Positions 1 through 28,277 of a stretch of 64,000 bases of DNA are shown here, piece by piece. The position numbers were made by a program, and so were the translations under genes. Source of the stretch: Austropuccinia psidii (lineage: Eukaryota > Basidiomycota > Pucciniomycetes > Pucciniales > Sphaerophragmiaceae); contig JALGQZ010000003.1 of the NCBI GenBank assembly GCA_023105745.1, positions 72,762,696 through 72,826,695 of the forward strand, read 5' to 3'. The notes under the pieces were generated by a model. It was given only the letters and a program-made list of their open reading frames with translations. It was not told the DNA's origin and searched no databases. Every line of letters begins with the position of its first letter. Position 1 is the first letter of the stretch.

Positions 1-2
1 CT

Positions 3-866
3 TTCAAGACTCCATCAATGAAGGCACCTGATTCTTTTGATGGTACTCAAGCTCATAAATTGAGAGGATTTATCCAATCCTGTCAATTAATCTTCCATAA
101 TGATCCAGCAAATTTTTTCTCTGACAGGAAGAAAGTTCTTTACTCAACTTCTTTTCTGACTTGTAGATCTGGAAAGTGGATTGAACCCTATCTCTCAAAT
201 ATTTCCAATGAAGACCCTTCCTACCTCCTCAATAATTGGCCATTATTTGAATCTCAATTATTCACTCTGTTTGGTGACCCCAATGAAGTCAGTAAAGCTG
301 AACAAGAGTTGGACAATTTGAGGATAAAGGAAAGTGGTCATGTTTCCTTGTACATTGCATATTTCAGAAGCTTAATGTCAAGAATTGGAGATTGGGGGGA
401 AAGAGCTTATATCCATGTTTACAGAAGAGGATTGGCATCAAGATTATTGGATCAGTTGGCTTCTCACCCTGGAACTTTTGATACTCTTCAAGAACTTATG
501 GATGTCACCTTAGAATTAGACAAAAGATATCATGAGAGGCAAAAAGAAAAGGGTGGCAATCAAGAAAAGAAGCCTCCAGTCATTGGATCCAATCAATCTA
601 GGCCTCCTCAAAACTCATCTTCAAAGAGATCTCACCAGAAGAAGAACAAGAAGGGCAAGCAATTTCAATCTTCAAAGGACAATCACCATGCTGCTCTCCT
701 CAATAAGGACAATAAATTAATTGGTTCTGAAAAGGAGAGGAGGATCAAAGAGGGGCTGTGTACTTATTGTGGTGGGAAGCACCCAATTGAAAAATGCTTC
801 AAGAGACCTCAGAACAAGCCTGGGTCATCATCAAGAGGCTTCCCTAGCAAGCTGGGAAAAGCCTGA
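3..866 (+). CDS. Gag (partial, 5' end outside window), element A
   Basis: Retrotransposon capsid/nucleocapsid polyprotein, open from the window edge to TGA at 864-866. It has the gypsy Gag core (GKWIEPYLSN, LFTLFGDPNEV, FRSLMSRIGDWGERA). A basic serine/lysine-rich stretch follows, then a CCHC-like zinc knuckle with spacing C-X2-C-X3-H-X4-C, one residue shorter than the usual X4 spacer. The copies in B and D have the same spacing. The intact relative in element B is 452 residues, so about 165 N-terminal residues lie outside the window. The reading frame is undamaged here although pol is badly broken. Role: assembles the cytoplasmic particle in which reverse transcription occurs. Confidence 0.9.
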   Translation, partial: FKTPSMKAPDSFDGTQAHKLRGFIQSCQLIFHNDPANFFSDRKKVLYSTSFLTCRSGKWIEPYLSNISNEDPSYLLNNWPLFESQLFTLFGDPNEVSKAEQELDNLRIKESGHVSLYIAYFRSLMSRIGDWGERAYIHVYRRGLASRLLDQLASHPGTFDTLQELMDVTLELDKRYHERQKEKGGNQEKKPPVIGSNQSRPPQNSSSKRSHQKKNKKGKQFQSSKDNHHAALLNKDNKLIGSEKERRIKEGLCTYCGGKHPIEKCFKRPQNKPGSSSRGFPSKLGKA

Positions 867-899
867 GTGGGAATCTTGATGTGTTCAATGGTTCTCACT
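854..899 (+). promoter_or_regulatory. Gag-pol -1 ribosomal frameshift signal, element A
   Basis: The heptamer GGGAAAA (854-860) lies in the gag frame as G GGA AAA, fitting the X XXY YYZ rule. It is two codons before the gag stop. After a 5-nt spacer (861-865), AGTGGGAA (866-873) pairs with TTCTCACT (892-899) in an 8-bp stem with one G-U pair. The pol frame is -1 relative to gag and is open from 848, so slippage here would join Gag to Pol. The same layout is found in B, C and D, with compensatory stem changes in D. The function is inferred from arrangement and covariation. Confidence 0.8.
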
Positions 900-3800
900 T
901 ATTTCCTTCAAGAGCCCAATTGTGCACTCTGAATACTAGTGTCAAGAAATCTTTAAAATTTCTTATTTTCTCTTCTGTCTCTGATATTTTTTATAGTATT
1001 CTGATTGATTCTGGTGCTACAAACTCTTTTATTGCAAAGAATTTTGTTCTCAAGTACTCATTGACTCTGTCAGAGCTCCCTGAAAAGATTCCTCTTTTCA
1101 TTTTGGATTCTAATGAATCCCCTGCCTTGTTCATCACCCATTATACCAAGTGGGTAGTTGAATTGCCTTCCTTCCCAAGATTTGAATGGGACTTCTTTAT
1201 CATAGATTCACCCAAGGGAGAAGACCTGATATTGGGCTATGATTTCCTTTACCATTTTAACCCCATTATTGATTGGAAAAATGGATTGATCACCTATGAT
1301 TCTAGTAATAAGGATTCTAGTGGTATTATTCCTTCTACTAGTAATGTCTTAGCCACTGCTGTCAACATTGTTGCTCTGGTCAGTGAACTTAAGACACCTT
1401 CCCTTCCTTCTTCTGTCCATACCCCTTCCATCATTCCCTCTCAATCATTACTTCCATTAAGAGATGAAGTCTTCAAAGAGATAAAGGATGTTGGAGAAGA
1501 TGTTGCCATATCTTGACTTCATCTCTTTCAAGGGGATATGGACCTTCCTCCTTTATCTTTTCATGCCTCCCTGGAGGAGCAGTGGGATGAGGAGGAAGAG
1601 CCAGAAGAAATTGAAACTGTGTTGAAGGTAGTCCCTCCTGCTTATCACCAATACTTGGATGTATTCTCCAAGGTGAAAGCAGAGAAACTTCCTCCACACC
1701 GCGCCTGTGATCACCATATCGAATTGGAGGGTCTTCTACCTCCAATTGGTGTTATCTACTCCTTATCAAATCAAGAGTCAGAAACACTACGGGCCTACAT
1801 TTCAGAGAATGTAGAGAAAGGTTTCATTAGACCAAGCTCCTCTTAAACAGGAGCACCCGTTGTTTTCGTTAAGAAAAAAGATGGAGGTCTTCGTTTGTGT
1901 GTTGATTACCGCAAACTTAATGCTGTCACTAGGAAGAACAGATACCCTGTTCCTCCTATGAACCAGCTTCTTACCGTATTCAACGGTTCCACTATCTTCT
2001 CCAAGATAGATTTCCGTGTTGCATATAGCCTTCTGAGAATCAAAGAGGGGGATGAGCACTTAACTGCCTTTAGAACCAAATATGGTAGTTATGAGTATTT
2101 GGTTTGACCAATGCTCCTGCTTCTTTCCAAAATCTAGTAAATGATATCTTTGCAGATTTTTTGGATGTGTTTGTTGTGGTTTATTTAGATAATATTATGG
2201 TCTTTTCCGGTTCGGAGGAGGAACATGTCAAACATGTGGCCTCTGTCCTCCAAAGACTGAGGTACAATAATCTGTTTGCCAAAGACTCCAAGTGTGTATT
2301 CCATGCCTCAAGTGTGGAATACTTGGGCTATGTTGTTTCAAGTGATGGCCTCAAGATGGATTCTTCAAAGGTTCAACAAATCCTCAATTGGCCTCAGCCC
2401 AAGAACATCAAGGCCCTCCAATCTTTTCTTGGCTTTGCCAACTTTTATTGTTGTTTCATTAAAAATTATTCCAAAAAAATCTCTGCTCTCACTTCCCTCC
2501 TTAAAAAAGATTCTCCTTTTATCTTCAATGAGGAAGCTCTTAGTCAGTTTCAAATACTCAAAGAAGCTTTCACCTCTGCTTTTATCTTATCCCATTTCAA
2601 TCCATCTCTACCTACTATTGTAGAGACTGGTGCTTCTGATTATGCATTGGGCGCCGTACTGAGTCAGGTGAATGACTCAGGAAAGCATCCCATTGCATTT
2701 GATAGTCGCAAGCTCTTACCAGCTGAACTCAACTATGAAATTCATGACAAGGAACTCCTTGGCATAGTTTGGGCGCTCAAGCACTGGAGAGCATTTCTTC
2801 TTGCTCTTTCCAATCCTTTTGAGGTCTTGACAGACCACTCTTCCTTGCAGTATTTCATGTCTTCCAAAGTTCTTACTTGTTGTCAGGCCCGTTGGGCTTC
2901 ATTTCTCTCAGAATTTCATTTCACTATCACTTACCGCCCAGGCAGGCTGGCCACTTTACCAGATGCCTTGTCATGTTGGGACGATGTGTACCCAGAGAGG
3001 GGGGTGGACTTCATCAGCAAGAATCCTCAAAATTTTCATCAAGTACTTAAGCAAGATGGAATTCAAGAGTCAAGATTCTTCTCAATCAAAGTGGAAATTT
3101 TCTCAGATTTAGTTGACAAGATTCAAAAAGAAGTATGGCAAGACAAAGACTATAAAGGAATACTCAAGAAACTAGCAAGAGGTTAATCAGTTCCAGATTA
3201 TTCTCTTGAACCTCAAGCCAAGTTATTATTATTCAAAGATAGAGTGGTAATCCCAAGCAATGAAGAACTTCAACTCAATATTCTTCAAAAGCATCATGGC
3301 TCACCATTGGCTGGCCATCCTGGCCAGGAGAAGACCCTCAAGCTCATCAAAAGGGATTTTTATTGGGCTGGAATGAATCAATTCATCAAGGACTATGTGT
3401 CCTCATGTCAGAAATGTTCAAGAAACAAGAACATTCATCACAAGAATTTTGGATTACTCAAGCCTCTTGCAATTCCGTCTGGTCCTTGGAATTCATTATC
3501 AATGGACTTCATCACTCAATTGCCTCTGTCAAACAACTTTGATTCAATTAGCAGTTGTGGACAGATTCTCAAAAATGGCAATCTTCATTTCAGCTTATGG
3601 AACAATCACTGCTCTGGACGTAGCTCAAATCTTAATTAGTCATGTATTTTCCAAGCATGGCCTTCCAGTAAGTATTGTCAGTGATAGAGGATCCTTATTT
3701 GTTTCATCATTTTGGACTCAATTGTGTCAGCAGCTCAAGATATCAAGAGATCTTTCAACTGCCTTTCACCCTGAAACAGATGGACAGACAGAGAGGGTAA

Positions 3801-4606
3801 ATCAGATACTAGAACAGTACCTTTGGATGTATGTCAGCTATCATCAAGATGACTGGTACACCTGGCTCCCTCTGGCTGAATTTGCCTATAATAATACAGA
3901 ACACTCATCAACCAAGCAATCACCTTTTTTCACCATTTATGGAAGAAATCCCAGCTTTGACTCAATCCATATTTCTCAAGACTCACCTGCTGGAAAGTTA
4001 TCAACAAAACTCCAATCAGTACAGCAAGTTGTCAAAGAAGAATTAGAGTCAGCAATAAGGAGATTCAAGAAGTATGCAGATAGAAATAGAGCAATTCCAC
4101 CTGATTTCCAACCTGGGGACAAAGTATGGCTAGCTTCCAAGAATATCAAGACAACAAGACCCACCAAGAAATTATCAGAAAGATGGTTGGGACCTTTTGA
4201 AGTTCTGAAGAAGATTGGCAGCCATGCATATCACCTCAAGTTGCCTCAGCAATGGAAGACAGTTCACCCTGTATTCCATGTGGCCTTATTAGAACCAGTC
4301 AAGCATTCAACTATCCCAAATCGTCATCAATTGCCGCCACCACCAGTCTTAGTGGAGGAGCAAGAAGAATGGGAAGTAGCTCAGGTTCTGGACTCAAAAC
4401 TCAAAAGAGGTAAATTATGGTATCTTGTAGAGTGGAAAGGATTCAGTGAAGACCCAGAAAAAACCACTTGGGAACCAGCTTCCAACCTTACCAACTCACC
4501 AGATCTTGTCAAGGATTTCCATTCATTGTATCCAGACAAGCCTGGTCCAAATACCTCAAGAGTTTTAAATATGGTGCTTGGTGGGGAGAAGAACTTACAA
4601 AAGTAA
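867..4606 (+). pseudogene. Pol polyprotein (protease-RT-RNase H-integrase-chromodomain), broken, element A
   Basis: Pol in the -1 frame after gag. Visible domains: aspartic protease (DSGA near 1010), reverse transcriptase (VDYRKLN near 1900; active site YLDN near 2190 instead of YLDD), RNase H (first aspartate replaced by glycine near 2630), integrase zinc-binding region (3280-3420), integrase core (SDRGSLF near 3690, HPETDGQTERVNQ near 3770) and C-terminal chromodomain (WEVAQVLDSKL to TTWEPASNL, 4370-4480). Damage compared with B: TGA at 1514 (TCA changed), TAA at 1844 (TCA changed), a 13-bp deletion near 2102 between TTGGT repeats that removes part of VMPFG, TAA at 3184 (GAA changed), and a 2-bp deletion near 3550. 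The usual stop is also lost, adding about 11 residues. Cannot be functional. Confidence 0.92.
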
Positions 4607-4990
4607 GTTCCTCTCCTGGCATGCACCTTTAAGGGGGTATTCTACCCATATGTTGTTGTAAGCATCACCTTGGCCACTTTGTGAGCACTTGTCAATTCTT
4701 TGGACAGGTTCAGGAAGCATACAACACCAATACCCTCCAATTTGGACCTTATCAAGATATGGCCAAATGTTTCTTTCTTTAATTTTCCTTTCTTTCTCTT
4801 TTATTTATCTTTTCATTTATGCCAATTATCATAATTCAAGATATTCATTACTTCAAGTCATTTACGGCAATTCTTTTCAGAAGTCATTTATGGCAATTCA
4901 TCTCAGAAGTCATTTATGGCAATTCTTTTTAATTTTATGGTGCTTGGTGGGGAGTGGAAGTTATGAAAGTAAGTTCCATCTCCTGGTATG
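4607..4990 (+). other. 3' UTR of element A, first part
   Basis: Non-coding. It holds the first copy of a duplicated UTR segment (about 4571-4690) and the start of the second (about 4936 onward). Both begin ATGGTGCTTGGTGGGGAG and contain a GTAAGTTCC string. AACTTAC/GTAAGTT near 4592-4609 could form a 7-bp hairpin. No gene seen. Confidence 0.6.
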
Positions 4991-5727
4991 TGTCACAGGG
5001 GCTCTTCCAAAATGAAGAGGGCCTGGCACTCAGTGAACAGACTTACTTATGGAGGGCTCAGAAGAAAATACTCAAATGATAAGAGTAATGGAGTAAGAGG
5101 ATAAATTCCTAGTCATAAAATAATAAGCATAAAAGATAAGAGAGACAAAACAAAAGCAATAATAAAGAGCCAACCACAAATAATCCTGTACCACTGTTTC
5201 AACCTGTTCAGAAAAGAGAAAAGGATTAATAAAGGATATGGCCACCAGGACTCTACTGAACAGGTGAGGGAAGGCAAAGACTAACTTAATAAATAATAAA
5301 ATAATATTTCTTAAATGAGAAATAAAATAATATTAGATAATAAATCCAATATTTTAATTAACTGGGGGAAAAACCCCCAGGTGGGTGAAGAGGGGCTGGT
5401 ATATGTGAGAAATACCAGCCTTGGAGTTTGAGTGCTGAGATACTTGTTTGTATGCTGGAAGAAGTTGGATGTGGGATTGAATCCTGTATTGGTGAATCCA
5501 ATACAGGTTATACAGTCAATACAGGTATTTGCGCCTGTATTGATTACAGGACTGTATTTGGTGAATCCTGTATTTGGGTCTTGCCTGTATGAAACTGTAT
5601 TGAGGTCTGGAACTGTATTTGGAGACTGTTGAATGAAACCCCCTTGCTGATTGGGTTTTGAGGGGTATCAATGAAGTAATGATTGTAGAATATGATTGGT
5701 AATGCCCCTGCCTCCTTGGCTGTGACA
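4991..5727 (-). repeat. 3' LTR of element C
   Basis: 737-bp LTR with inverted TGTCACA/TGTGACA ends. Inner features: a perfect stem CTGGGGG-AAAAA-CCCCCAG near 5363-5381, a second stem GGCTGGTAT/ATACCAGCC near 5394-5422, and a dense array of CTGTATT and its complement AATACAG between about 5480 and 5625. In the element's own direction the array is nearest the LTR start, as expected for U3 regulatory sequence. The adjacent TTTTAATTAACT is the proposed partner of the primer-binding region. Confidence 0.93.
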
Positions 5728-5746
5728 TTATCCCCCTCTTGAAAAT
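5728..5746 (-). promoter_or_regulatory. Polypurine tract of element C
   Basis: On the minus strand, TTTTCAAGAGGGGGATAA abuts the 3' LTR start. Purine-rich tracts at this place prime plus-strand synthesis in LTR retrotransposons. The same tract adjoins the 3' LTRs of A and B. Confidence 0.75.
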
Positions 5747-6681
5747 GGTGAGCTCTGAGCACCATAAGTACAGTGAGTCTTGATGAGCTTGAAACAATCC
5801 ATACAGTTCTTTCCTCCAATTCCTTAAATTTATCCCATTAAACTTTCTTCTTCAAACAATACTCAAACAAACCTTCACTTGATAACTTGTAGGTATTTTC
5901 CCCTTGATCTTGATTCTGAATTCCCTCTTTTACTTCAAAATACTTTCATTCTTCTTAAAATTTCTTCATTCTTGTCTTGAGTGTCTTCACCAAAACTTCT
6001 CTTGAGTCCTCATGGCTTTTGAAAAGTGGGTGACCTGGGTTAATGTCCCAAGAACACCTGATATCATCATAATTTTCATCTTGAGAGTGTTGGCATAAGG
6101 TGGCCAATACTTGAGGTTATGGACCATTTCAGAGGTCCTGGCCAAAATCCTTGATTTTGTGTTTAAAAGGGGATTTTAGCCAATTTGCGCAAAAATGCGC
6201 AAAGTGCGCAAATGCACATATATGCCATAATGGCATATAATGCTGAAAAAAATGAAAGAACTTGATTTCTGATGAAAATTGGCCTTATAGAGTATCCTGG
6301 CCATTTTGCGCATTTTTGCGCAAAATGCGCATTTATGATGAAATGGGCCAAAAAGGCCTTTTGAAGCCTTTTGACGAGATAAAGAGGCCTTTTGCGCAAA
6401 TTTGCCAATATGCCTAATTAAGCATATTTTGATGGAAAATGATAAAAAATGAGCTATTTTGAAGTTTTGAGGTCTGATGTGGCCATTTGTGCCAAAGTGC
6501 ATAAATCCATGAAATTGGCCAATTGGGCCAATTGAAGCGGTTTTTTCTTCTTTGATCTTGATTTCTTCTTGAATGTCTTCCTTCTTATCCCTTCCTTGAC
6601 TGGTCAATTGCCATAAATGCCTTGCTGACTTTCAATTGCCCATAATTCTCTTGGTCTTGAATTTGAAATTTTGACTTGAAG
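5747..6681. other. 3' UTR of element C with GCGCAAA palindromic motifs
   Basis: No convincing gene. Between 6176 and 6400 the strings TGCGCAAA and TTTGCGCA recur at least seven times in both directions, with the partial palindrome TATATGCCATAATGGCATAT near 6219-6238. This region also lies upstream of the antisense gene and could contain its promoter, but no TATA box or other site could be assigned. Confidence 0.5.
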
Positions 6682-7841
6682 ATGAGTTCAAGGCTGACTT
6701 CCCTTTGTAATTTCAATCACTCTGATTCCCCACCTTCTGTACTTTATGGTCCTGGTGTTTTTGATAACTTGAGGGAGCTTTCTGAAGAGAGTATGGCCCC
6801 TACAGAGATTTGGGACATCAAGAAAGCCTATAATGGTTTTAAATCTGTCAGAGTTATTGAACCACCCTGCACCAATTGTAAGAGGAAAGGGATTCCTTGT
6901 GTGGAATCTGCTACTGCTAGGTCCACCAGGTGTCAATTTTGCAATCTTGGAAAAAGAAATTGTTCTCAAGCCCACTATAGCTTTCCTGAAGATGCCAGAA
7001 GATTATGGAGCAGCATCAAGAAGGGTGGAAGATTTGGATTGGAAGCTCCTGTTGATGAACCTCCCACCTCTGATGCCACCTCTGGTCACTCCAATTGTGA
7101 GTTTATTGGCCAAAAAATTGATGGGTTACTGACTTCTATGTTTTCTTTTCTTTTTCTTCAGTGACTGGATCTAGAATAAGAGGTGTCCAACAATGGAATA
7201 ATACCAGCGGTTCCTGGGCAGCCATTGGAGGATCAATTCACCCCCAAGGAAATCCCATTGGAGTGGCCCCAGAGGTTCCCATTTTGGTTACCAGAAAGGA
7301 TGGAAGACTTGGAAAATTGAAGAGAAATTTGGTGGTGCAAGATGAAAATGATACTGATGCTGAAGGCAGTGATGAGATTGATGGAGAAGAGCTTGAAATG
7401 ACTACCCCAATCCAGAAAAGAAGAATCCAATCCACCTCACAATCCCCAGTCCAAGCCAGTACCACCAATAATGAAGTGATCAGGTCTTCCCAACCACCTC
7501 AGCTGCCAATTAGATCCCCAACCAGGCCCTCCACACTTGCCTCCACCTCTACCAATATCCAACCACCAGTGGCCAGCACTTCTAGAGACCCAATGTCTCC
7601 AGAGCCTGAATCAATCTTTGAAAACCGTCGCCGCTGGAATATTACTGGCAACTTCACTGATCAGAAAAGGGTGAACAAGAAGGTGGTCACCACTCTATTT
7701 GCTGAAGTTGATGCTTTGACTGAGGTTTTTGTTGATAAGGCTATGAAGAGTGCTATTCCAGGGGAGCCCACTGCTGCTTTGGCCAGGGATGCAGTTGCTT
7801 ATGAAGATGCCATGGTTGCTAAGTTTAGAGAAGCCTTGTAG
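6682..7841 (+). CDS. Antisense Zn2Cys6-type cysteine-cluster protein carried by element C
   Basis: Two exons (6682-7096 and 7162-7841) joined across a 65-nt GTGAGT..TTCAG intron give 364 residues from ATG at 6682. Without splicing the frame runs on only to a stop at about 7162, and splicing restores a long open second exon. Cysteines at residues 63, 66, 73, 84, 87 and 94 have spacing C-X2-C-X6-C-X10-C-X2-C-X6-C, which satisfies the fungal Zn(II)2Cys6 binuclear cluster rule (GAL4-type DNA-binding domain). The cluster is followed by a Ser/Pro/Thr-rich acidic region and a helical C terminus. No fungal-specific transcription factor domain is recognised. It is transcribed opposite to its host retrotransposon, so its intron would survive retrotransposition of the element's RNA. 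I recall similar proteins as abundant in rust genomes. A nuclear regulatory role is inference. Confidence 0.72.
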
Positions 7842-8576
7842 AAATTTTGATTAGGATTATCTGTAGCTGGTCTTTACCATTACTAGTGTTTGCTCTTGAT
7901 TATTACATAAATTGACTCCCCAAACAAGATATGGGAGTTATTATTGCTGCTTTTGAAACAAGAAATGAAAAATAAATCATACAAGTAAAGAAAATGAAAT
8001 AAAAAAAATAAAAAATAAAAAATAAAAAATAAAAAATAAAAATGAAAAAGAATTGAGAGAAAAAGAGAGTAAAGAAAGAAATAAGGAATGCCTGAGGGTT
8101 GTCCTTCTTGTGGTTAATTTCTTGATTTTGGCCAAAGTGTTCTGAAATATAAAATCAAGCATTTGATGCTCACAGCGTGGCCAAGGTAATGTTTTACAAG
8201 AAGTAGACCCCTCAGGGATGCATACCAGGAGATGGAACTTACTTTCATAACTTCCACTCCCCACCAAGCACCATAAATGAAAAAGAAATTATGCCATAAC
8301 ATGAATTGTGGTAATGAATGTCTTGAAAGATAATTTATGGCATGATTAAAGAAAGAAAAGAAAATAAGAGAAAGATTGGGCCATATCTTGATGAAAGGTC
8401 CAAATCTTGAGGGTATGATGTTGCAAGGCCTTCTGAACCTGTCCAAAGAATTGACAAGTGCTCACAAAGTGGCCAAGGTGATGCTTACAACCAATTTGGG
8501 TAAAATACCCCCTTAAAGGTGCATGCCAGGAGAGGAACTTACTTTCATAAACTCCAATCCCCACCAAGCACCATAA
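7842..8576. other. Element C 3' UTR with AT run and duplicated segment
   Basis: Contains an (AAAAAT)n-like run at about 7995-8050. Two copies of a UTR segment (about 8160-8276 and 8465-8576, minus sense) both carry TGGTGCTTGGTGGGGA and GTAAGTTCC. Elements A and B have the same pair in the same place. No gene seen. Confidence 0.6.
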
Positions 8577-11500
8577 TCAAACTCTTGAGGCATTTGGGCC
8601 AGGCTTGTCTGGATACAAAGTGTGAAAATCCTTGACAAGGTCTGGTGAGTTGGTAAGGCTGGAAGCTGGTTCCCAAGTTGTTCTTTCTGGGACTTCATTG
8701 AATCCTTTCCACTCCACTAAATACCATAATGAACCTCTCTTGAGTTTTGAATCCAGAACCTGAGCCACTTCCCATTCTTCTTGCTCTTCCACTATTACTG
8801 GAGGTGGTGGCAATTGGTGTCGATTTTGGATAGTTGATTGCTTCACTGGTTCTAACAAGGACACATGGAAAACAGGGTGAACTGACTTCCATTGTTGAGG
8901 CAACTTGAGGTGATATGCATGGCTGCCAACCTTCTTAAGAACTTCAAAGGGTCCCAACCATCTTTCTGAAAGCTTTTTGGTGGGTCTTGTTGTCTTGATG
9001 TTCTTGGAGGCTAGCCATACTTTCTCCCCAGGTTGGAAATCAGGTGGAATTGCTTTATTTCTATCTGCATACTTCTTAAAACGCTTTATTGCTGACTCTA
9101 ATTCTTCTTTGACAACTTGCTGTACTGATTGGAGTTTTGATGATGACTTTCCAGCAGGTGTATCTTGAGAAATGTGAATTGAATCAAAGCTGGGATTTCT
9201 TCCATAAATAGTGAAAAATGGAGACTGTTTTGTTGATGAATGTTCTGCATTATTATAGGCAAATTCAGCCAGAGGGAGCCAGGTGTGCCAGTCATCTTGA
9301 TGGTAACTGACATACATCCGAAGATACTGTTCTAGAATCTGATTTACCCTCTCTGTATGTCCATCTGTTTCAGGGTGAAAGGCAGTTGAAAGATCTCTTG
9401 ATATCTTGAGCTGCTGACACAATTGAATCCAAAATGATGAAACAAATAATGAACCTCTATCACTAACAATACTGATTGGAAGACCATGTTTGGAAAAGAC
9501 ATGATTAATGAATATTTGAGCTAAGTCCAAAGCAGTGATTGTTGAATAAGTTGGAATAAATATTGCAATTTTTGAAAATCTTTCTACAACTACTAAAATG
9601 GAATCAAAGTTGCTTGACAAGGGCAATTGAGTGATAAAGTCCTTTGATAAAGAATTCCAAGGACCAGATGGAATTTGAAGAGGCTTGAGTAATCCAAACT
9701 TCTTATGGTGGATGTTCTTGTTTCTTGAACATTGCTGACATGAGGACACATAGTCCTTGATGATTTGATTCATGCCAGCCCAATAAAAATTCCTCTTGAT
9801 GAGCTTGAGGGTCTTCTCCTAGCCAGGATGGCCAGCCAACGGTGAGTCATGATGCTTTTGAAGAATGTCCAATTGAATTTCATGATTGCTTTGAATGACT
9901 ACTCTATCTTTGAGCAATAATAATTTTGCTTGAGGTTCAAGAGAATAGTCTGGGACTGATTCTCCTCTTGCTAATTTCTTGAGGATTTCCTTATAATCTT
10001 TGTCTTGCCATACTTGTCTTTGAATTTGATCAACTACATCTGAAAAAACATCAACTTTAATTGAAAAGAATCTTGACTCTTGAATTTCATTTTGCTTGAG
10101 AACTTGATGAAAATTTTGAGGATTCTTGCTGATGAAATCCACCCCCCTCTCTGGGTACACGTCGTCCTGACGTGACAAGGCATCTGGTAAAGTGGCCAGG
10201 CTGCCCGGGCGGTAAGTGATGATAAAGTGAAATTCAGATAGAAATTCTGCCCAACGGGCTTGACGACAAGTAAGGACTTTAGAGGACATGAAATACTGCA
10301 AGGAAGAGTGGTCTGTCAAGACCTCAAAAGGATTGGAAAGAGCAAGAAGAAATGCTCTCCAGTGCTTGAGCGCCCAAACTATGCCAAGGAGTTCCTTGTC
10401 ATGAATTTCATAGTTGAGTTCAGCTGGTAAGAGCTTGCGACTATCAAATGCAATGGGATGCTTTCCTGAGTCATTCACCTGACTCAGTACGGCGCCCAAT
10501 GCATAATCAGAAGCACCAGTCTCTACAATAGTAGGTAGAGATGGATTGAAATGGGATAAGATAAAAGCAGAGGTGAAAGCTTCTTTGAGTATTTGAAACT
10601 GACTAAGAGCTTCCTCATTGAAGATAAAAGGAGAATCTTTTTTAAGGAGGGAAGTGAGAGCAGAGATTTTTTTGGAATAATTTTTAATGAAACGACAATA
10701 AAAGCTGGCAAAGCCAAGAAAAGATTGGAGGGCTTTGATGTTCTTGGGCTGAGGCCAATTGAGGATTTGTTGAACCTTTGAAGAATCCATCTTGAGGCCA
10801 TCACTTGAAACAACATAGCCCAAGTATTCCACTCTTGAGGCATGTAATACACACTTGGAAGCTTTAGCAAACAAATTATTGTCTCTAAGTCTTTGGAGAA
10901 CAGAGGCCACATGTTTAAAATGTTCATCCAAAGAGCTAGAGAAGACCATAATATCATCTAAGTACACTACAACAAAAATATCCAAAAAGTCTGCAAAGAT
11001 ATCATTCACAAGATTTTGGAATGAAGCTGGAGCATTGGTTAAGCCAAATGGCATAACCAAATACTCATAACTACCATATTTGGTTCTAAAGGCAGTTAAA
11101 TGCTCGTCCCCCTCTTTAATTCTCAGGAGATTATAAGCACCACGCAGATCTATCTTGGAGAAGATAGTAGCACCGTTAAAGATGGTAAGAAGCTGATTCA
11201 TTGGAGGAACAGGATACCTGTTCTTCCTAGTGACAGCATTAAGTTTGCGGTAGTCAACACACAAATGAAGACCACCATCCTTTTTCTTAACAAAAAGGAC
11301 AGGTGCTGCTGTTGAGGAGGAGCTTGGTCTGATGAAACCCTTCTCTACATTCTCTGAAATGTAGGCCCGCAGTGTTTCTGACTCATTCTTTGATAAAGAG
11401 TAGATAACACCAACTCGAGGTAGAAGACCCTCCAGTTCAATATGATGATCACAGGCAGGGTGTGGAGGAAGTTTCTCTGCTTTCACTTTGGAGAATACAT

Positions 11501-12305
11501 CCAAATATTTGTGATAAACAGGAGGGACTACCTTCAGCACAGTTTCAATCTCTTCTGGCTCTTCCTCCTCATCCCACTGCTCCTCCAGGGAGGCATGAAA
11601 AGATAAAGGAGGAAGGTCCATATCCCCTTGAAAGAGATGAAGTGAAGATATAGCAACATCTTCTCCAACATCTTTTATCTCTTTGAAGACTTCATCTCTT
11701 AATGGAATTAATGACTGAGAGGGAAAAATGGAGGGGTTATGGACAGAAGGAGTAAGGGAAGGTGTCTTAAGTTCACCAACCAGAGCAACACTGTTGACAG
11801 CAGTGGATACGTCATTACTAGTAGAAGAAATAATACCACTAGAATCCTTATGACTAGAATCATAGGTGATCAATCCATTTTTCCAATCAATAATGGGATT
11901 AAAATGGTAAAGAAAATCATAGCCCAATATTAGGTCTTCTCCCTTGGGTGAATCTATGATAAAGAAATCCCATTCAAAGCTTGGGAAGGAAGGTAAATCA
12001 ACAACCCACTTGGTATAATGAGTGATGAACAGGGAAGTGGATTCATTAGAATCCAGAATGAAAAGAGGAATCTTTTCAGTGAGCTCTGACATGGTCAATG
12101 AGTAATTGAGAACAAAATTTTTTGCAATAAAGGAGTTTGTAGCACCAGAATCAATGAGAATACTATAAAAAATATCAGAGATTGAAGAAAAAATAAGAAA
12201 TTTTAAAGATTTCTTGACACTAGTATTCATAGTCCACAATTGTGCTCTTGAAGGAAATAAGTGAGAACCATTGAACGCATCATGATTCCCACTCAGGCTT
12301 TCCCC
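8577..12305 (-). pseudogene. Pol polyprotein, one nonsense codon, element C
   Basis: Pol in the -1 frame relative to gag, nearly intact. Protease DSGATNSF, reverse transcriptase with an intact YLDD, RNase H with glycine instead of the first catalytic aspartate (VETGASDYAL), integrase zinc region, D,D-35-E core (SDRGSLF, HPETDGHTERVN) and terminal chromodomain (VAQVLDSKL..TTWEPASSL). The only stop is TAG at 9819-9821 in the integrase zinc-binding region, where B has CAG (Gln). The A and C RT/RNase H segments share the Asp-to-Gly change and other variants absent from B. The loss of an RNase H catalytic residue means C probably could not move without help. Confidence 0.92.
12260..12305 (-). promoter_or_regulatory. 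Gag-pol -1 frameshift signal, element C (weakened)
   Basis: Same layout as in A: heptamer at 12299-12305, 5-nt spacer, stem arms at 12286-12293 and 12260-12267 (minus sense AGTGGGAA/TTCTCACT). The heptamer reads GGGGAAA instead of GGGAAAA, so re-pairing of the second codon after slippage would be imperfect. This may be decay. Confidence 0.68.
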
Positions 12306-13649
12306 TGCTTGCTAGGGAAGCCTTTTGATGACCCTTGCCTGTTTTCAGGCCTCTTGAAGCATTTTTCAAATGGGTGTTTACCACCACAATAATTGCACAA
12401 GCCTTCTTTAATCCTCCTCTCCTTTTCAGAACCAATTAATTTGTTGTCCTTATTGAGGAGAGCAGCATGAGGCTTGTCTTTAGACACTTGAAAATTCTTC
12501 CCCTTCTTATTCTTCTTGTGATAAGGCATTCTTGATGATGAACTTTGAGGAGGCTTGGAGGAGTTGGATCCACTGATTGGAGGCTTCTTCTCTTGATGAC
12601 TGCCCTTTTCCTTCTGCCTCTCATGGTATCTCGTATCTAATTCCAAGGTGATATCCATGAGTTCTTGAAGACTATCAAAAGTTCCAGGGTGAGAAGCCAA
12701 TTGGTCCAACAATCTTGATGCCAAACCTCTTCTATACACATGAATATAGGCCCTTTCCCCCCAGTCTCCAATTCTTGACATTAAACTTCTGAAATCAGCT
12801 ATGTACAAGGAAATTTGACCACTTTCCCTCATCCTCAAATTGTCCAACTCTTGTTCAGCTTTTCTGACTTCATTGGGATCACCAAACAGAGTGAATAACT
12901 GGGTTTCAAACAACTGCCAGTTATTGAGGAGATAAGAAGGGTCTTCATTGGAGATATTTGAGAGGTAAGGTTCAATCCATTTGCCAGCTCTACCAGTAAG
13001 AAAAGAAGTTGAGTAAAGCACCTTCTTCCTGTCAGAGAGAAAGCTTTCTGGGTCATTATGAAAGATTAATTGACAGGATTGAATGAATCCTCTCAATTGA
13101 TAAGCTTTAGTACCATCAAAAGAATCAGGTGCCTTCATTGATGGAGTCTTGAATGCAGGGACTTTTGAAGTGTCCCTTGGGGCAACTGCTTGAGTGAGTT
13201 GTCCCATAAGCTGAGTCATTTGCTCCATCATCTTGAGGAAATTTGGTTCAGCTTGAGAGACAGAATGTTGATTAGAAAGGGCTAGATTTGGAGCCTCAGG
13301 AGCTTCAGGAGCACCTGCCAAGGCAGCTGCCACTTCAGTCTCCTCAGATTCTTCCTCTTCCACAGACTCCTCCCCCTCCTCATCTTCAGCTTCCCCAAAT
13401 CTACTTCTAGGCCCTTGAGAAACACCAGGATAACCACCCAATAGTCCAGAGAATGATCTTGATCTTCTAGACTTCACACCTCCTCTTCTGGAGGGTGCTG
13501 CTCCTTCCATTGGTGGTCCTGTCCAAATTTTCACTCAGTTGATGAACTGATGGTGTGCGGTCAAGAGGAGCCCTTGGTGTAGGAGTGAGAACAGCTTGAT
13601 GTCTCTGAGATCTTGTATTCTTGGCTGGTGGGCTATGCTGAACTGGCAT
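12293..13649 (-). pseudogene. Gag with a 2-bp frameshift, element C
   Basis: Starts MPVQHSPPAKNTRSQ like the B gag. The frame shifts near 13518, where C lacks two bases (AG) present in B. The rest (from about 13534) runs open to TGA at 12293 and has an acidic Glu-rich stretch, the capsid-like core and the zinc knuckle C-X2-C-X3-H-X4-C. Expected full length about 450 residues. Gag assembles the particle and binds element RNA. Confidence 0.92.
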
Positions 13650-14423
13650 TATGAAAGAAGAATGAATAAAAACTTGATGATACTTTGAATAAATTAAGGC
13701 TTGACCAAATCAAATTAAATGAGAATCTTGATGATCTTGAAGAATCAATAAACAGTCTTGAAGTGAATCAATATGAATAAATCTTGAAGAGTGAAGATGA
13801 CAAAGTCAAATTCTTATGAATAATCAATTTCAATCAATAAGTCAAATCAAGTCAATCAAAATCAAATCAATTAAGTCTTGAGGAATTCAATCAATATCTT
13901 CAAAAATCAATTCAATTTTCTTGAGGAATCAAATTCAAATCAATCAATTAAATCAAATCTTGAGGATGAATCAGCTATCTTGAAGAATCAAATCAAGTCA
14001 ATCAAATCAAATCAAATCAATCAAAGTCAATTCAAAATCTTGAGGTGAAATCAATGTCTTGAGGAATCAATCAATCAATCAAAAATCTTGAGAAATTTCA
14101 AAACCAAAATCACTGAATACCCCAAATCAATAAAATCCCTGAATGATGAATCAATTAACCCAAATAATTCCACTCAAATAACCTGATAAAAACCTGAATT
14201 CACACAAAATAGAAATTAGAATGATAAAGAATAAAGTGAAATGGTCAGCAGAATTTTTGAAATGAGAAAGAGAATCAATTTTCATTTGAATAAAATGAAT
14301 GAGATGAAAATTGATAAGAGAGAAAAATCATAAAAATCATAAAAAATCATAAAATCATGAAAAAATCATAATTGAAGAATGAGATAAATGAATAAAAGGA
14401 GTGAAAGGAAAGAAGCAATTATG
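13650..14423 (-). repeat. Low-complexity 5' leader of element C
   Basis: Untranslated leader between 5' LTR and gag, made of imperfect TCAATCAA and CTTGAGGAATCAA words (plus-strand spelling). B (29624-30340) and D (20242-20908) have similar leaders. No ORF of note. Confidence 0.6.
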
Positions 14424-14438
14424 AGTTAATTAAAATAA
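14424..14438 (-). promoter_or_regulatory. Putative self-priming primer-binding region, element C
   Basis: Directly downstream of the 5' LTR in the element's direction. It does not begin with the TGG typical of tRNA-primed sites. Its first 14-15 bases (plus-strand AGTTAATTAAAATAA) are complementary in RNA to the LTR segment at 14798-14811. B and D differ in the last four bases at both places in a matching way. This fits self-primed reverse transcription as established for Tf1 and related chromoviruses. Confidence 0.6.
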
Positions 14439-15175
14439 TGTCACAGGGGCTCTTCTAAAATGAAGAGGGCCTGGCACTCAGTGAACAGACTTACTTATGG
14501 AGGGCTCAGAAGAAAATACTCAAATGATAAGAGTAATGGAGTAAGAGGATAAATTCCTAGTCATAAAATAATAAGCATAAAGGATAAGAGAGACAAAACA
14601 AAAGCAATAATAAAGACCCAACCACAAATAATCCTGTACCACTGTTTCAACCTGTTCAGAAAAGAGAAAAGGATTAATAAAGGATATGGCCACCAGGACT
14701 CTACTGAACAGGTGAGGGAAGGCAAAGACTAACTTAATAAATAATAAAATAATATTTCTTAAATGAGAAGTAAAATAATATTAAATAATAAATCCAATAT
14801 TTTAATTAACTGGGGGAAAAACTCCCAGGTGGGTGACGAGGGGCTGGTATATATGAGAAATACCAGCCTTGGAGTTTGAGTGCTGAGATACTTGTCTGTA
14901 TGCTGGAAGAAGTTGGATGTGGGATTGAATCCTGTATTGGTGAATCCAATACAGGTTATACAGTCAATACAGGTATTTGCGCCTGTATTGATTACAGGAC
15001 TGTATTTGGTGAATCCTGTATTTGGGTCTTGCCCATATGAAACTGTATTGAGGTCTGGAACTGTATTTGGAGACTGTTGAGTGAAACCCCCTTGCTGATT
15101 GGGTTTTGAGGGGTATCAATGAAGTAATGATTGTAGAATATGATTGGTAATGCCCCTGCCTCCTTGGCTGTGACA
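14439..15175 (-). repeat. 5' LTR of element C
   Basis: 737 bp with TGTCACA/TGTGACA ends, same length as the 3' LTR, differing at about a dozen single bases. One difference puts a mismatch in the CTGGGGG/CCCCCAG stem. Should hold the element's promoter; no clear TATA box could be fixed. Confidence 0.93.
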
Positions 15176-16550
15176 GTATGCATCCCTGAGGGTTCTAATT
15201 CTTGTAAAACATTACCTCGGCCACTCTGTGAGCATCAAATGCTTGGTTTTCATTTTTTAGACACTTTTTGGCCAGAATCAAGCAACTCACCACAAGAAGG
15301 ACCAACCATCAGGATTTTTCTGTATTTCTTTCTTTACTCTCATTTTCTCTTATTCTTTTATTTTTCTTTCTTTCTTTTATTTCTTTAAAGCAGTAGCATC
15401 CCCTTCCAAATTACGTATTGGGAGGTTCCTTTATTTTTTATTCTTATTTTACTTTAATTTATTTTTATTCCATTTATTAGTATTTATAAGAGTATGAACA
15501 GAAGCCAACCCAAACACAAATAAGAACAAGATACTGGTCTTTAACTCCACCCAAATTGTCAAAGTTCACGGGGATTCAGTTATCAACTCATGGAGAATAC
15601 CCAAGCAGAAGGGTCAAGACGTCAAATTCAGAGAAAGCCCTCAAGGAAGTGGGCCATAACTCAATTATGACCCCCCACTCAAGCCCTCCTCAGGCTGGAT
15701 TCATCACCCAGGGCCTCCCCTGCAACTTTGGAGAGGCCATGGTCTTGGTGGTCCTGGACCCCCCAATGGGTCCAGGCCATGTAAGGGAAGTTATGGGTCA
15801 TGGGGCCAATTTATGGTCCCATGGTACCCCTGGGTTCCCAGCAAACTTGGGCCCAGGGGCTCATTTTCGTCCTGGGGGCCTCCAATAACCCTCACGGACC
15901 GCGGCATATGGTCCACGGCATACGGCCCGCAGACCGTAGGACCCGAAAATCAAAAAAATGGCCAAATAGGCCCATAATTCCAATAAGCCCTAAAATGGCC
16001 ATAAATGGTCATAGGTCAAGAAATTCACCATAATCACCTAGAACCTCAAAAAGGCCAGAAATGGCCATATGTTCTAATATGACCAATTAGGCCAAAAGGG
16101 CCATAAGGGCATGAGTCATCCAGAGTTACTATAGCAAGGGCCACAGTCCAAGATTGTTATGGAGGGCTGTTGAGGAAGTTTTTTCAAATCAAATGGGGAC
16201 AAGACCCCTGAATTCACTTTTTAATAAATTTCTTCTGATTAAGCCTGGCCAGATGGGTACACTTCATATACTCATCTGGCCCCATTTTTTGAGCACAAGA
16301 GCTCAGTGGCCATCCATTTGGGATAAAACCCAAGGACAAGTAAACTCACTGAATCAGAAGAAAAGTTTAGTCCGAAGTGGGGTACTTACTCAAAGTTAAA
16401 AGAAGGGGGGGAAATAAATTTAATTTACAGAGAAGAGTTGAAGAAGGATTTCAAGATAATGGTCAAAAGAAAACTTTTTGAAGGAGTGTGTGGGGGAGTG
16501 AGATGCCACTCAATAATGGCAGGGTATTATGGTGTTCAGGAGCCCACCAG

Positions 16551-16567
16551 TTTCAAGAGGGGGATAC
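16551..16567 (+). promoter_or_regulatory. Polypurine tract of element A
   Basis: TTTCAAGAGGGGGATAC directly precedes the 3' LTR and is the expected primer site for plus-strand DNA synthesis. It also fixes the element's plus orientation. Confidence 0.75.
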
Positions 16568-17329
16568 TGTAACAACCATCCATCAGGGGTAAGGGTATTC
16601 ATTCATACACCCACTCAAGCATCTCAAATCAGCAGATCCAGCACTTGTATCAGCATTCAGTTTCAGCAATCTTCATTCTAAAGCAGTTATACAGCTTGGT
16701 ACCTCAATACAGCCTGTCAATACCTGTACAGGTTGGATTCACCCAATACAGTTCCAATACACCAGTATAAACTGTATGATCACTCAAATACACCACACCT
16801 CTTGTACAGGTTTTGTACAGCTGTACAGGACCTGTATTGGCCAGACTCAATTCAATCATCAATTATTCCCATGAAAATTCTTCCTCTGGATCAGGGCTGG
16901 TGATTCTCACATATACCAGCCCCTCTTTCTCCCCCCTGGGGACGTTTCCCCAGTTAATTAATTTAGTTTATTTATTATTTTATAATTCCTCTTATCCTTA
17001 TATTTGGGTATTATAATTATTTGATTTTAAGTTAGTATTTGCATTTTTCTCTCTTCGCCTGTACAGTATGAGTTGGGTGGCCATATCCTTATTAACCCTT
17101 CTCTTTCCATTCTGACAGGTTGAAACAGTGGACTTGGACTTGTTTGTGGTTGGATCTTCTATTTCTTACTCTTATTTCTTGTTGCCGCTTTTCTTATATT
17201 TATTCTTTTAGTAATTCATCTTTCATACTCTTAAGTGTATCCCTTCTTACCATATCTCTGAGCCCTCCATAAGTGAGTCCCAGTTTACTGAGTGCCAGGC
17301 CCTCTTCACTTCAAAGAGCCCCTGTGACA
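16568..17329 (+). repeat. 3' LTR of element A
   Basis: 762 bp, TGTAACAACC to CCCTGTGACA, nearly the length of the B LTR (763 bp) and alignable to it throughout in reverse complement. Contains the CTGTA/TACAG array (about 16690-16850), the ACCAGCCC hairpin and the CTGGGG/CCCCAG stem followed by TTAATTAATTTAG. Confidence 0.92.
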
Positions 17330-17704
17330 CTTGATAATTAATAAAATAATATTAAATAATAAATCCAATATTTTAATTAACTGGGGGAAAAACCCCCAGG
17401 TGGGTGAAAGGGGGCTGGTATATGTGAAAAAGTGCCAGCCTGGTGTTTGAGTGTTGAGAAACCATGATTGTATGATTGAGGAGCCTGTATTTGAGATTTG
17501 AAACTGTATTGGTGTATCCAATACAGTTATTTGAATCAATACAGGTATTTGCGCCTGTATTTAGGACAGGCCTGTATTGAGCTGTATTGAGGTCTGGAAC
17601 TGTATTTGGTGAATCTTCCATGAAACCCCTTGCTTATTAGGTGTTGGAGGATTTTCCATTAGTAATGAGTGGTAATGCCTTGCCTGTCTCCATGGCTGTG
17701 ACAA
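17330..17704 (-). repeat. C-type LTR fragment, interrupted by element A
   Basis: Closely resembles the right half of the C LTR: AATATTTTAATTAACT, the perfect CTGGGGG/CCCCCAG stem, the CTGTATT array, and end CTGTGACA at 17704. Its left half should lie beyond element A, outside the window. It ends directly against D reverse transcriptase sequence, and its type differs from D's own 5' LTR. It is therefore best read as a separate insertion (solo LTR or element) into D. Confidence 0.8.
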
Positions 17705-21899: not shown

Positions 21900-22647
21900 T
21901 GTCACAGGGGCTCTTCGAAGTGAAGAGGGCCTGGCACTCACTTATGGAGGGCTCAAGGATAGGATAAGATGAGATACACTTAAGAGTGTTAAAGATGAAT
22001 TACTAAAAGAATGAATATAAGAAAAGCAGCAACAAAAGAAATAAGAATAAGAAATAGAAGAGCCAACCACAAACAAGTCCAAGTCCACTGTTTCAACCTG
22101 TCAGAATGAAAAGAGAAGGGTTAATAAGGATATGGCCACCCAACTCATACTGTACAGGCGAAGAGAAAAGGGCAAAGACTAACTTAAGATTAAATAACTA
22201 TAATACCCAAAAATAAGGAATAGAATAATTATAAAATAATAAATCAACTAAATTAATTAACTGGGGAAAAGTCCCCAGGGGGGAGAAAGAGGGGCTGGTA
22301 TATGTGAGAATCACCAGCCCTGATCCAGAGGAAGAATTTTCATGAGAATATTTGATGATTGAATTGAGTCTGGCCAATACAGGTCCTGTACGGCTGTACA
22401 GAACCTGTACAAGAGGTGTGGTGTATTGGAGTGATCATACAGTTTCATACTGGTGTATTGAAACTGTATTGGGTGAATCCAGCCTGTACAGGTATTGACA
22501 GGCTGTATTGAGGTACCAAGCTGTATGCATGTTCAGAATGAAGATTGCTGAACTTGAATGCTGATACAAATGCTGGATCTGCTGATTTGGGGTGTTTTGA
22601 GTGGGTGTATGACTGAATACCCTTACCCCTGATGAGTGGTTGTTACA
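21900..22647 (-). repeat. 3' LTR of element B
   Basis: 748 bp. It lacks 15 bp present in the 5' LTR, bounded there by ACTCA direct repeats, which points to slippage. Contains the CTGTA/TACAG array near 22375-22535 and both LTR hairpins (about 22257-22322). Confidence 0.95.
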
Positions 22648-22668
22648 GTACCCCCCTCTTGAAACTGG
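22648..22668 (-). promoter_or_regulatory. Polypurine tract of element B
   Basis: On the minus strand GTTTCAAGAGGGGGGTAC abuts the 3' LTR. Same position and sequence type as in A and C. Confidence 0.75.
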
Positions 22669-24548
22669 TGGGCTCCTGAACACCATAATAACCTGCCATT
22701 GTTGAGTGGCATTTCACTACCCCACACAATTCCTTGGAAGGTTTTTCTTTTGGCAATTATCTCGAAATCCTTCTCCATCTTATCTCTGTCAATTAAATTA
22801 TTTCCCCCCTTCTTTTAACTTTGAGTAAATACCCCACTTCGAACTGTTCTTTCTCCTGATTGAAACAACTGACGTCCTTGGGGCATGGCCTTGGGTTGTA
22901 TCCCAAAATTATGGCCACTGAGCTCTTGTGCTCAAAAATGGTGCCAGATGAGTATATGAAGTGTACTCATCTAGCCAGCCCAATCAAGGAAATTGATGAT
23001 GACAAGAATTCAAGGGTCTTGTCCCCAATGGCCTTCAAAACGCCTCAACCAGCCCTTTATGGTGATTTTGGGCTGGTGCCTTCTCTATGGATGGTCCTGA
23101 GGATTCTTGAATTTATGGCCATTTTGGCCTTTTGTTTTGGTCCTTAGTGCCTTGGGGTGACATGTGATCCATCGCCAATTCTGGCCTTTTCTTGGGTCCT
23201 TGGTGTTTTGGGTGAAATTTTGGTTCATGGCCATTTTTGGCCTTTTCTTGAAAATTGAGGTTTTTTTTTTGGCCTTTATGGGCCTTTGGGGTAATTTGGG
23301 GTCTTGCGGTCCGCGGGCCGTACGCCGCGGTCCGTGGTACGTGGACCGTACGCCGCGGTCCGCGGGCCGTGGGGGCTATAGGAGGCCCCCTGGGCCCAAA
23401 TTTGCTGGGGACCCAGGGGTGCCATGGGACCTTGATTGGCCCAAAAACAAGAATCTTCACCTTATATGGCCTGGACCCATTGGTGGGGTCCAGGACCTCC
23501 AAGAACTTGGCCTTCCCCAAACTTTCAGGGGAGGCCCCCCATGCTGATTCCAGCCCCTGAAGGGGTCTTGGGCCTTGACATTTGAGAGGTTTTGAGGGGG
23601 GGCCATGATTGACTTGTGGCCCAATTCCCTTGAGGTCAAATCTTGGGCCTACAACTGGACTGATTCTGCCGTACTGAATCTTCTGCTTGCGTATCTTCAG
23701 CCATGAGTCAACCATGGCCTCTAGTGGAATTTTGATGAATTGGGTAAGTATAACCAGTTGCTTGTCCTTGTTTGTGTTTGGTTTGGCTTCTATCCATGCT
23801 CTTATCACAACTAAAAAGTAAAAAATAAAATAAAAAATAAAAAAGATAATGGAACCTCCCAATACGTGATTTGGGGAGGGGCTGCTGCTGCTTTAAAGAA
23901 ATGAAAGAAGAAAATTATACAAGTAAAGAAAGAAAGAAAAAATGAAAGAATAAGAGAACATGAGAGTAAAGAAATAAATAAAGAAAAATTCCTGATGGCT
24001 GGTCCTTCTTGTGGTGAGTTGCTTGATTCTGGCCAAGAAGTGTCTGAAAAATGAAAACCAAGCATTTGATGCTCACAGAGTGGCCAAGGTGATGTTTTAA
24101 AAGAAGTAGAACCCTCAGGGATGCATACCAGGAGATGGAACTTACTTTCATAACTTCCACTCCCCACCAAGCACCATAAGACTGAAATAAATTGCCATAA
24201 ATGCCTTCTGAAATGAATTGCCATAAATGACTACTGAAATGAATTGCCGTAAATGACTTGAAGTAATGAATGTCTTGAATTATGATGATTGGCATAAAAT
24301 GAAATGATAATAAAGAAAGAAAATGAAAACAAAGGAAAGAAAGAGACATTTGGCCATATCTTGATAAGGTCCAAATGGAGGGTATTGATGTTGTATGCTT
24401 CCTGAACCTGTCCAAAGAATTGACAAGTGCTCACGAAGTGGCCAAGGTGATGCTTACAACAACATATGGGTAGAATACCCCCTTAAAGGTGCATGCCAGG
24501 AGAGGAACTTACTTTCATAACTTCTTCTCCCCACCAAGCACCATAAAA
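22669..24548 (-). other. 3' UTR of element B
   Basis: About 1.9 kb without a supportable gene. It includes a strongly palindromic, CpG-rich CGGTCCGCGG/CCGTACG cluster (23306-23372), an A-rich run near 23815-23845, and the two direct copies of the ATGGTGCTTGGTGGGGAG segment (about 24065-24180 and 24435-24547). ORFs in the GC-rich part look like chance. Confidence 0.7.
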
Positions 24549-27500: not shown

Positions 27501-28277
27501 AACCTTCAGCACAGTTTCAATTTCTTCTGGCTCTTCCTCCTCATCCCACTGCTCCTCCAGGGATGCATGAAAAGATAAGGGAGGAAGGTCCATATCCCCT
27601 TGGAAGAGATGAAGTGAAGATATGGCAACATCTTCTCCAACATCCTTTATCTCTTTGAAGACTTCATCTCTTGATGGAAGTAATGACTGAGAGGGAATTA
27701 TGGAAGGGATATGGACAGAAGAAGGGATGGAAGGTGTCTTAAGTTCACCAGCCAGAGCAACACTGTTGACAGCAGTGGCTAAGTCATTACTAGTAGAAGG
27801 AGTAATACCACTAGAATCCTTATGATTAGAATCATAGGTGATCAATCCATTTTTCCAATCAATAATGGGATTGAAATGGTAAAGGAAATCATAGCCCAAT
27901 ATCAGGTCTTCTCCTTTGGGTGAATCTATGATAAAGAAATCCCATTCAAAGCTTGGGAAGGAAGGCAAGTCAACTACCCACTTGGTATAATGGGTGATGA
28001 ACAAGGCAGGGGATTCATTAGAATCCAAAATGAAAAGAGGAATCTTTTCAGGGAGCTCTGACAGAGTCAATGAGTACTTGAGAACAAAATTCTTTGCAAT
28101 AAAAGAGTTTGTAGCACCAGAATCAATGAGAATACTATAAAAAATATCAGAGACAGAAGAAAAAATAAGAAATTTTAAAGATTTCTTGACACTAGTATTC
28201 AGAGTGCACAATTGTGCTCTTGAAGGAAATAAGTGAGAACCATTGAACACATCATGATTCCCACTCAGGCTTTTCCC
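24549..28277 (-). pseudogene. Pol polyprotein, single nonsense codon, element B
   Basis: Entered from gag by -1 frameshift. Protease (LIDSGATNSF), reverse transcriptase ([19 protein letters not shown], active site VVYLDDIMVFS), RNase H (VETDASDYALG, HDKELLGIVWALK, TDHSSLQYF), integrase zinc region (H..H, CQQC), integrase core (MDFITQLP, VSDRGSLFVSS, HPETDGQTERVNQ), GPY/F-like WLGPFEVL and C-terminal chromodomain (WEVAQVLDSKLKRG to TTWEPASNL). The sole defect is TGA at 25629-25631, TGG (Trp) in A, between integrase zinc region and core. The chromodomain places it among chromoviruses, where it is known to target integration to chromatin. If the stop is an error or read through, the element could be active. 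Confidence 0.93.
28232..28277 (-). promoter_or_regulatory. Gag-pol -1 frameshift signal, element B
   Basis: GGGAAAA (28271-28277), 5-nt spacer, AGTGGGAA (28258-28265) pairing with TTCTCACT (28232-28239) on the minus strand. Gag stop TGA overlaps the stem start. Confidence 0.8.

Follow-up and report, generated by a model that had tools for sequence, protein, structure and literature searches.

A two-exon gene predicted to encode a zinc-cluster-like protein lies in reverse orientation inside a complete Ty3/Gypsy chromovirus of Austropuccinia psidii, and its predicted product belongs to a large family of A. psidii proteins. We propose, at roughly even chances, that this antisense gene is an accessory gene or regulator of an A. 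psidii chromovirus lineage that acts on the element's own DNA. The gene was found in a stretch of 64,000 nucleotides (hereafter the window), where nested Ty3/Gypsy elements make up most of the first 31 kb. The element that carries it, element C, has the following parts.

4986-4990: target-site duplication GTATG, left copy
4991-15175, minus strand: element C, a complete Ty3/Gypsy chromovirus of 10185 bp, nested in element A
4991-5727, minus strand: 3' LTR of element C (TGTCACAG...CTGTGACA), with 12 substitutions relative to the other LTR
5728-5745, minus strand: polypurine-like tract adjoining the 3' LTR, recognized by eye, with ~40 bp similar to elements A and B
8577-9773, minus strand: C-terminal part of the integrase, SH3-like domain and chromodomain
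9819-12239, minus strand: protease/RT/RNase H ORF, with one in-frame stop before the integrase ORF
12293-13534, minus strand: Gag ORF, with a frame break near the N terminus
14439-15175, minus strand: 5' LTR of element C
15176-15180: target-site duplication GTATG, right copy

Element C has the chromovirus order of Gag, protease, RT, RNase H, integrase and chromodomain, in which the integrase core (rve) scores 29.7 bits, under the Pfam cutoff of 32.6. The chromodomain scores 38.6 bits against a cutoff of 25.1, RVT_1, RT_RNaseH, RVP_2 and Retrotrans_gag also exceed their Pfam cutoffs, and Pol matches the Tf2-type SH3 model. Paired LTRs and a target-site duplication bound the element, and the two LTRs are 98% identical (12 substitutions in 737 bp, of which 10 are transitions; K2P 0.0165). 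Because of the frame break near the start of gag and the in-frame stop in pol, this copy of element C is probably not autonomous. The target-site duplication and the LTRs rule out a host gene that is merely surrounded by retrotransposons. Element A (plus strand; 1-4990 and 15176-17330) was interrupted when element C inserted, which produced the 5-bp duplication GTATG.

The antisense gene lies between the integrase/chromodomain ORF, which ends at 8577, and the 3' LTR, on the strand opposite to gag-pol, and consists of three parts.

6682-7096, plus strand: exon 1, an open frame that holds the six-cysteine cluster
7097-7161, plus strand: intron of 65 nt, GTGAGT...CTGAC...CAG, with GT-AG ends
7162-7841, plus strand: exon 2, an open frame

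The sequence-only reading had placed a two-exon ORF antisense inside a chromovirus, with integrase on one side of it and the 3' LTR on the other, and this description is confirmed: the element is complete, both exons are open and the intron between them is of the GT-AG type, with a CTGAC branch-like site that begins 33 nt before the intron end. The location and strand are those of an aORF-3R, the class of additional ORFs that run antisense in the region from pol to the 3' LTR. The predicted spliced product has 364 amino acids; those relatives that extend to the C terminus continue for about three residues beyond its end, as does the relatives' consensus. At the local composition, 364 stop-free codons in one given frame have a chance of ~1e-10, and this probability, together with a cysteine pattern that is absent from simulations, rules out a chance ORF. 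Neither tblastn nor a profile of the family found a second copy of the gene in the 64-kb window (next best E 1.2 and 0.43, respectively).

Zn(II)2Cys6 proteins follow the spacing pattern C-X2-C-X6-C-X5-12-C-X2-C-X6-8-C. The spacing that had been read from the antisense gene, C-X2-C-X6-C-X10-C-X2-C-X6-C, is exact and agrees with that of PF00172; the looser pattern has one match in a six-frame search of the window and none in 60 windows of equal size simulated by a first-order Markov model. The earlier assignment to a Zn2Cys6-type gene holds for this exact spacing, but the Pfam scores fall below cutoff. The full-length protein has no Zn_clus match at E<=1; exon 1 alone scores 12.8 bits (E 0.13) and isolated 51-aa pieces in natural order score 17.0 and 18.2 bits against a cutoff of 21, and neither the protein nor any of its pieces reaches the curated Pfam cutoff. 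At E<=1, PF00172 is matched by 25 of 31 members, which are exon 1 and 30 relatives picked for intact cysteines (best E 0.048), and in a 16-member set it is matched by seven (best E 0.068). One of the 31 members weakly matches an unrelated family in NCBIfam (E 0.1), and the window protein contains no other fungal transcription-factor domain at E<=1. In exon 1 and in the pieces, the best alignment to PF00172 pairs the protein's first knuckle with the profile's second (profile 18-32 or 18-33), and exchanging the knuckles yields one continuous PF00172 match with no clearly higher score. Swapped knuckles are unproven because the permuted piece scores about as the natural one does (18.2 for both in the second pair; 17.4 vs 17.0 in the first). 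A single-sequence search of solved structures gave no match at E<=5, while the profile search gave LEU3 zinc clusters only, with E of 1.4 and 2. The AlphaFold models are of low confidence (mean pLDDT 49.4 and 59.3), and Foldseek with a low-confidence model found no PDB match with E<=0.001. As read from these comparisons, the predicted protein is Zn2Cys6-like by spacing, with its membership of the family unproven.

The same results bear on whether the product might be a metal-knuckle protein that acts on RNA or on proteins, for instance in packaging or in nuclear import of the pre-integration complex, and is no DNA-binding regulator. Such a protein would be consistent with a PF00172 match that is partial and sets the first knuckle on the profile's second, and with the lack of a fold match at E<=0.001 from a weak model. 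The exact binuclear spacing of all six cysteines argues against it, as does the isolated piece, of which two stretches match Zn_clus and for which no other Pfam family is listed; we consider it improbable.

Relatives of the protein are numerous. Of 2284 candidates in the single-sequence search, 167 proteins reached E<=0.01, and the best 120 of these 167 are all from A. psidii MF-1. A 16-member profile scored 7997 candidates, of which 295 had E<=1, and the 120 of them that are listed are again all from A. psidii MF-1. A third, unsaturated search, with part of one relative, found 73 of 91 candidates at E<=10, all 73 from A. psidii, and is a weak test for other species because its query region is without the second knuckle. 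No relative from outside A. psidii is therefore among the matches listed in the three protein searches, and a scan of IMG/VR found no relative of the protein. Among the matches listed, the closest relative is 93% identical over 245 amino acids, and six of the best 120 bear the UniRef name 'Zn(2)-C6 fungal-type'. Absence of homologues from other copies had been named as the sign of a chance capture; since the gene belongs to a large A. psidii family, it is no single chance capture, and capture in one copy alone is ruled out by the multi-copy family.

The intron is also found beyond the window. Its reverse complement has CT at the start and AC at the end, and the sense RNA of the element cannot splice CT...AC as a GT-AG intron, which bears out the proposal that an antisense intron escapes removal when the element's RNA is copied. 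Because the sense RNA carries the intron in reverse complement, the intron survives every round of retrotransposition; its loss would require copying from spliced antisense RNA. The junction is spanned by 66 of the 120 listed relatives, the other 54 being ambiguous or not spanning it. In these protein records, 17 of the 66 read through the intron in frame, in a version whose length, deduced from protein, is 66 nt, and from 49 precisely the residues that it would encode are missing, as splicing would leave them. The intron is thus present at the same place in other copies, a point that the earlier reading had proposed to check.

Decay is evident among these copies. The relatives are gene predictions from one draft assembly, and in the best 120 all six cysteine positions are covered in 85, of which 30 keep all six cysteines; where a cysteine is lost, F or Y frequently replaces it. 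The rate of change at the cysteines is similar to that at other sites or higher, exceeding the average in three of four groups, and the listed copies differ from their own subfamily consensus at 7-13% of residues. Judged by their sequences, single copies look dead, and there is clear evidence of this kind that most listed copies do not keep the protein. The private changes include C-to-T types (P to L, P to S and T to I), and many need G:C to T:A transversions (A-S, D-Y, C-F, V-F, T-N and L-I). In the LTRs of element C, by contrast, 10 of 12 substitutions are transitions; the wealth of transversions in the relatives points either to an unusual spectrum of mutation or to an artefact in the assembly of MF-1. 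The intactness of the window copy carries no meaning, because the divergence of its LTRs is too small.

Comparison between subfamilies gives a different picture of the elements from which the copies came. Of 121 rows (120 relatives and the window protein), the 74 that cover at least 80% of residues 1-290 split into four groups of 7, 13, 6 and 48, and the six cysteines and the stretch PCVESATARSTRCQFCNLGKRNCSQA are kept in all four subfamily consensus (majority) sequences. The full-length consensus sequences, those of groups 2 and 4, differ at 31 sites with a mean BLOSUM62 of +0.42 and 13% radical changes, compared with a mean of -0.57 and 32% radical among 1949 private changes. The differences between groups 2 and 4 are more conservative than the private changes (P=0.0006, and again P=0.0006 after matching of transition/transversion classes), where the grouping itself used shared-variant sites that are partly the same sites that then differ. 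Over the first 240 residues, P is 0.003 for groups 2 and 4, 0.009 for 1 and 4, 0.02 for 1 and 2 and 0.00005 for 2 and 3, in comparisons that share sequences and hence are not independent. With class matching over the same residues, the values are 0.0035 (2-4), 0.011 (1-4) and 0 of 10000 (2-3), and the comparison of groups 3 and 4 with private changes is not significant in this region (P=0.13; class-matched 0.12). On the protein tree, changes on internal and on terminal branches could not be told apart by a Fitch test (mean BLOSUM -0.459 vs -0.552; permutation P=0.094). It counted 10 cysteine losses on internal branches where 12.7 were expected and 40 on terminal branches where 30.1 were expected; the tree is star-like (internal length 1.36, terminal length 9.45), and the internal branches are poorly resolved because of this shape. 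Taken as a whole, the consensus comparisons and the tree give moderate evidence that source elements kept the protein.

These two sets of results pull in opposite directions on whether the gene is a passenger, that is, a host zinc-cluster gene caught once by one chromovirus lineage, copied since and useless to the element. Drift of the listed copies from their consensus, cysteines that change faster than average in three of four groups and a Fitch test without clear constraint are what a passenger would leave, and the related elements A and B of the window manage without the gene. Subfamily consensus sequences that retain all cysteines and differ mostly conservatively are not, and no protein from outside A. 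psidii is among the matches listed, two of the three lists being full of copies. On balance we think a passenger possible but rather unlikely. The family could also have been taken over by the fungus or act mainly on host genes, with the element as its vehicle. A cluster that resembles a DNA-binding one and the hundreds of copies would suit such a host-side role, but all six cysteines are kept in so few of the listed copies that cover them fully (30 of 85), and no link to a host gene was seen; this is the least probable of the readings considered. Nor does the useful product have to be a protein: a role of the transcript itself, through dsRNA, silencing or transcriptional interference and with the protein incidental, has been proposed for plant-element antisense ORFs (PMC7264820). 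An antisense RNA, however, needs neither 364 open codons across a precise intron, nor conserved cysteines, nor conservative differences, and we hold this explanation to be very unlikely.

Returning to a regulator that acts on the element's own DNA, we note that a candidate control array adjoins the gene, and that a related element in the same window offers a comparison.

6186-6398: seven TGCGCA palindromes, candidate control array, with starts at 6186, 6196, 6205, 6307, 6317, 6326 and 6393
~21900-31118, minus strand: element B, related to element C

The TGCGCA sites form two triplets with steps of 10 and 9 bp, in inverted orientation, and one single site, and all of them lie ~280-500 bp upstream of the ATG of the antisense gene. 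Within 213 bp the array holds seven of the eight TGCGCA sites of the whole 64-kb window; in the 953 bp between LTR and gene, 7 are observed vs 0.02-0.07 expected. Element C is CpG-poor, with 43 CpG in 10185 bp, and 8 of the 43 fall within 220 bp at 6181-6400, seven of these eight being part of the TGCGCA palindromes; it has other CpG-richer spots, for example at 10101-10300 within pol. Deamination is reported to erode the CpG sites of A. psidii elements (PMC8063080, PMC12774611). Because of this reported decay, the surviving CpG cluster suggests selection or recent origin, between which one copy cannot distinguish.

Elements A and B are relatives of element C in the same window, and neither has the antisense gene, which indicates that the gene is not needed by every element or is often lost. 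They have in common with element C the LTR edge (~40 bp) and an AT-rich stretch after 7960, nearer to pol. Between these parts, A and B hold a block of their own, mutually related (71% identical over 1358 columns) and devoid of the gene, in which the longest antisense stop-to-stop frame has 128 aa (element B) or 52 aa (element A). A decayed gene in these blocks was sought and none was found, the remaining matches to element C having E of 0.03 or worse. Roughly where C has TGCGCA, after pol, A and B have CGG/CCG arrays amid element DNA that is mostly CpG-poor: that of element B (23300-23372) holds 16 CpG and 13 CGG/CCG triplets in 73 bp, and that of element A (15890-15950) holds 8 CpG and 8 CGG/CCG triplets. 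CGG/CCG is the usual half-site of Zn2Cys6 factors. To take the arrays of A and B as Zn2Cys6 half-sites is suggestive only.

Based on these features, we propose that the antisense gene may be transcribed from its own promoter, in the stretch 5728-6681 with the TGCGCA array, and that the transcript may be spliced and give rise to a zinc-cluster protein. The protein would then enter the nucleus and act on the element's own DNA, where it would most likely adjust the ratio of sense to antisense transcription or influence what becomes of a new copy. A narrower version of this model is a self-targeting circuit, in which a zinc-cluster protein with swapped knuckles would bind the helically phased TGCGCA array, held against methylation-driven decay of its CpG sites, and thereby set the antisense/sense balance, while the different arrays of A and B would suggest a separate control site for every lineage; we regard this version as doubtful.

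Fungal Zn(II)2Cys6 factors (PF00172) have in common with the window protein the exact spacing and basic residues after the second cysteine, whereas the window protein differs from them in its sub-cutoff scores, its seemingly swapped knuckle order and its being encoded by a retrotransposon. HBZ of HTLV-1 is of a different DNA-binding type (bZIP), and HTLV-1 is a virus unrelated to element C. HBZ and other antisense retroviral regulators are likewise products of antisense regulatory genes in reverse-transcribing elements (PMC11963269). Closer in position are the antisense ORFs of LTR retrotransposons. The gene brtn of Boty-like elements in Botrytis cinerea and Sclerotinia sclerotiorum is also an antisense additional gene in a fungal LTR retrotransposon and is classed among antisense ORFs between pol and 3' LTR (PMC7264820); its host is an ascomycete, unlike A. 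psidii, and it is compared here by its description only. The aORFs of Grande (gene23), RIRE2 and Retand (TRP28 domain) have the same place and strand, are multi-copy and are proposed to be nuclear or DNA-binding regulators (PMC7264820, PMC11963269). The window protein has no match to TRP28 at E<=1, Retand is described as a non-chromovirus, unlike element C (PMC7264820, PMC11963269), and the word 'zinc' is absent from the main text of both papers on plant aORFs. The antisense gene works like this known class of antisense ORFs, sharing its features of position and strand.

The sequence-only reading had called a retrotransposon that carries such a regulator in reverse unusual. The word fits the type of this accessory gene, but it needs tempering because Boty, Grande, RIRE2 and Retand elements are known to carry antisense genes in this position (PMC7264820, PMC11963269). 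Among the open-access papers listed in the literature searches, none was seen to report an antisense gene of zinc-cluster type in an LTR retrotransposon of a fungus (Zhao 2011 lies outside this scope). As far as those papers show, neither the zinc-cluster-like motif nor the intron, the rust chromovirus or the adjoining array has been reported for the antisense-gene class. What antisense genes do in LTR retrotransposons is described as an open question (PMC7264820). Transposable elements, for the most part Gypsy, make up >90% of the gigabase genome of A. psidii (PMC8063080), and a chromosome-level assembly has been described (PMC12774611). The present case combines an intron, a putative DNA-binding motif, a between-subfamily conservation signal and an adjoining candidate target array, and this combination in the TE-rich A. 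psidii makes antisense-gene function directly testable with existing genome and RNA data.

Other parts of the window include a region at 42400-44800 with several CpG-rich 200-bp windows (O/E ~0.7-1.4) and ORFs at 43083-43616 and 43815-44369, which is perhaps a host gene within otherwise CpG-poor DNA. By eye, the translation of an ORF at 59947-60453 resembles a Tc1/mariner-type transposase, and a 4-kb block at 48001-52000 has a very low G+C content of 22%.
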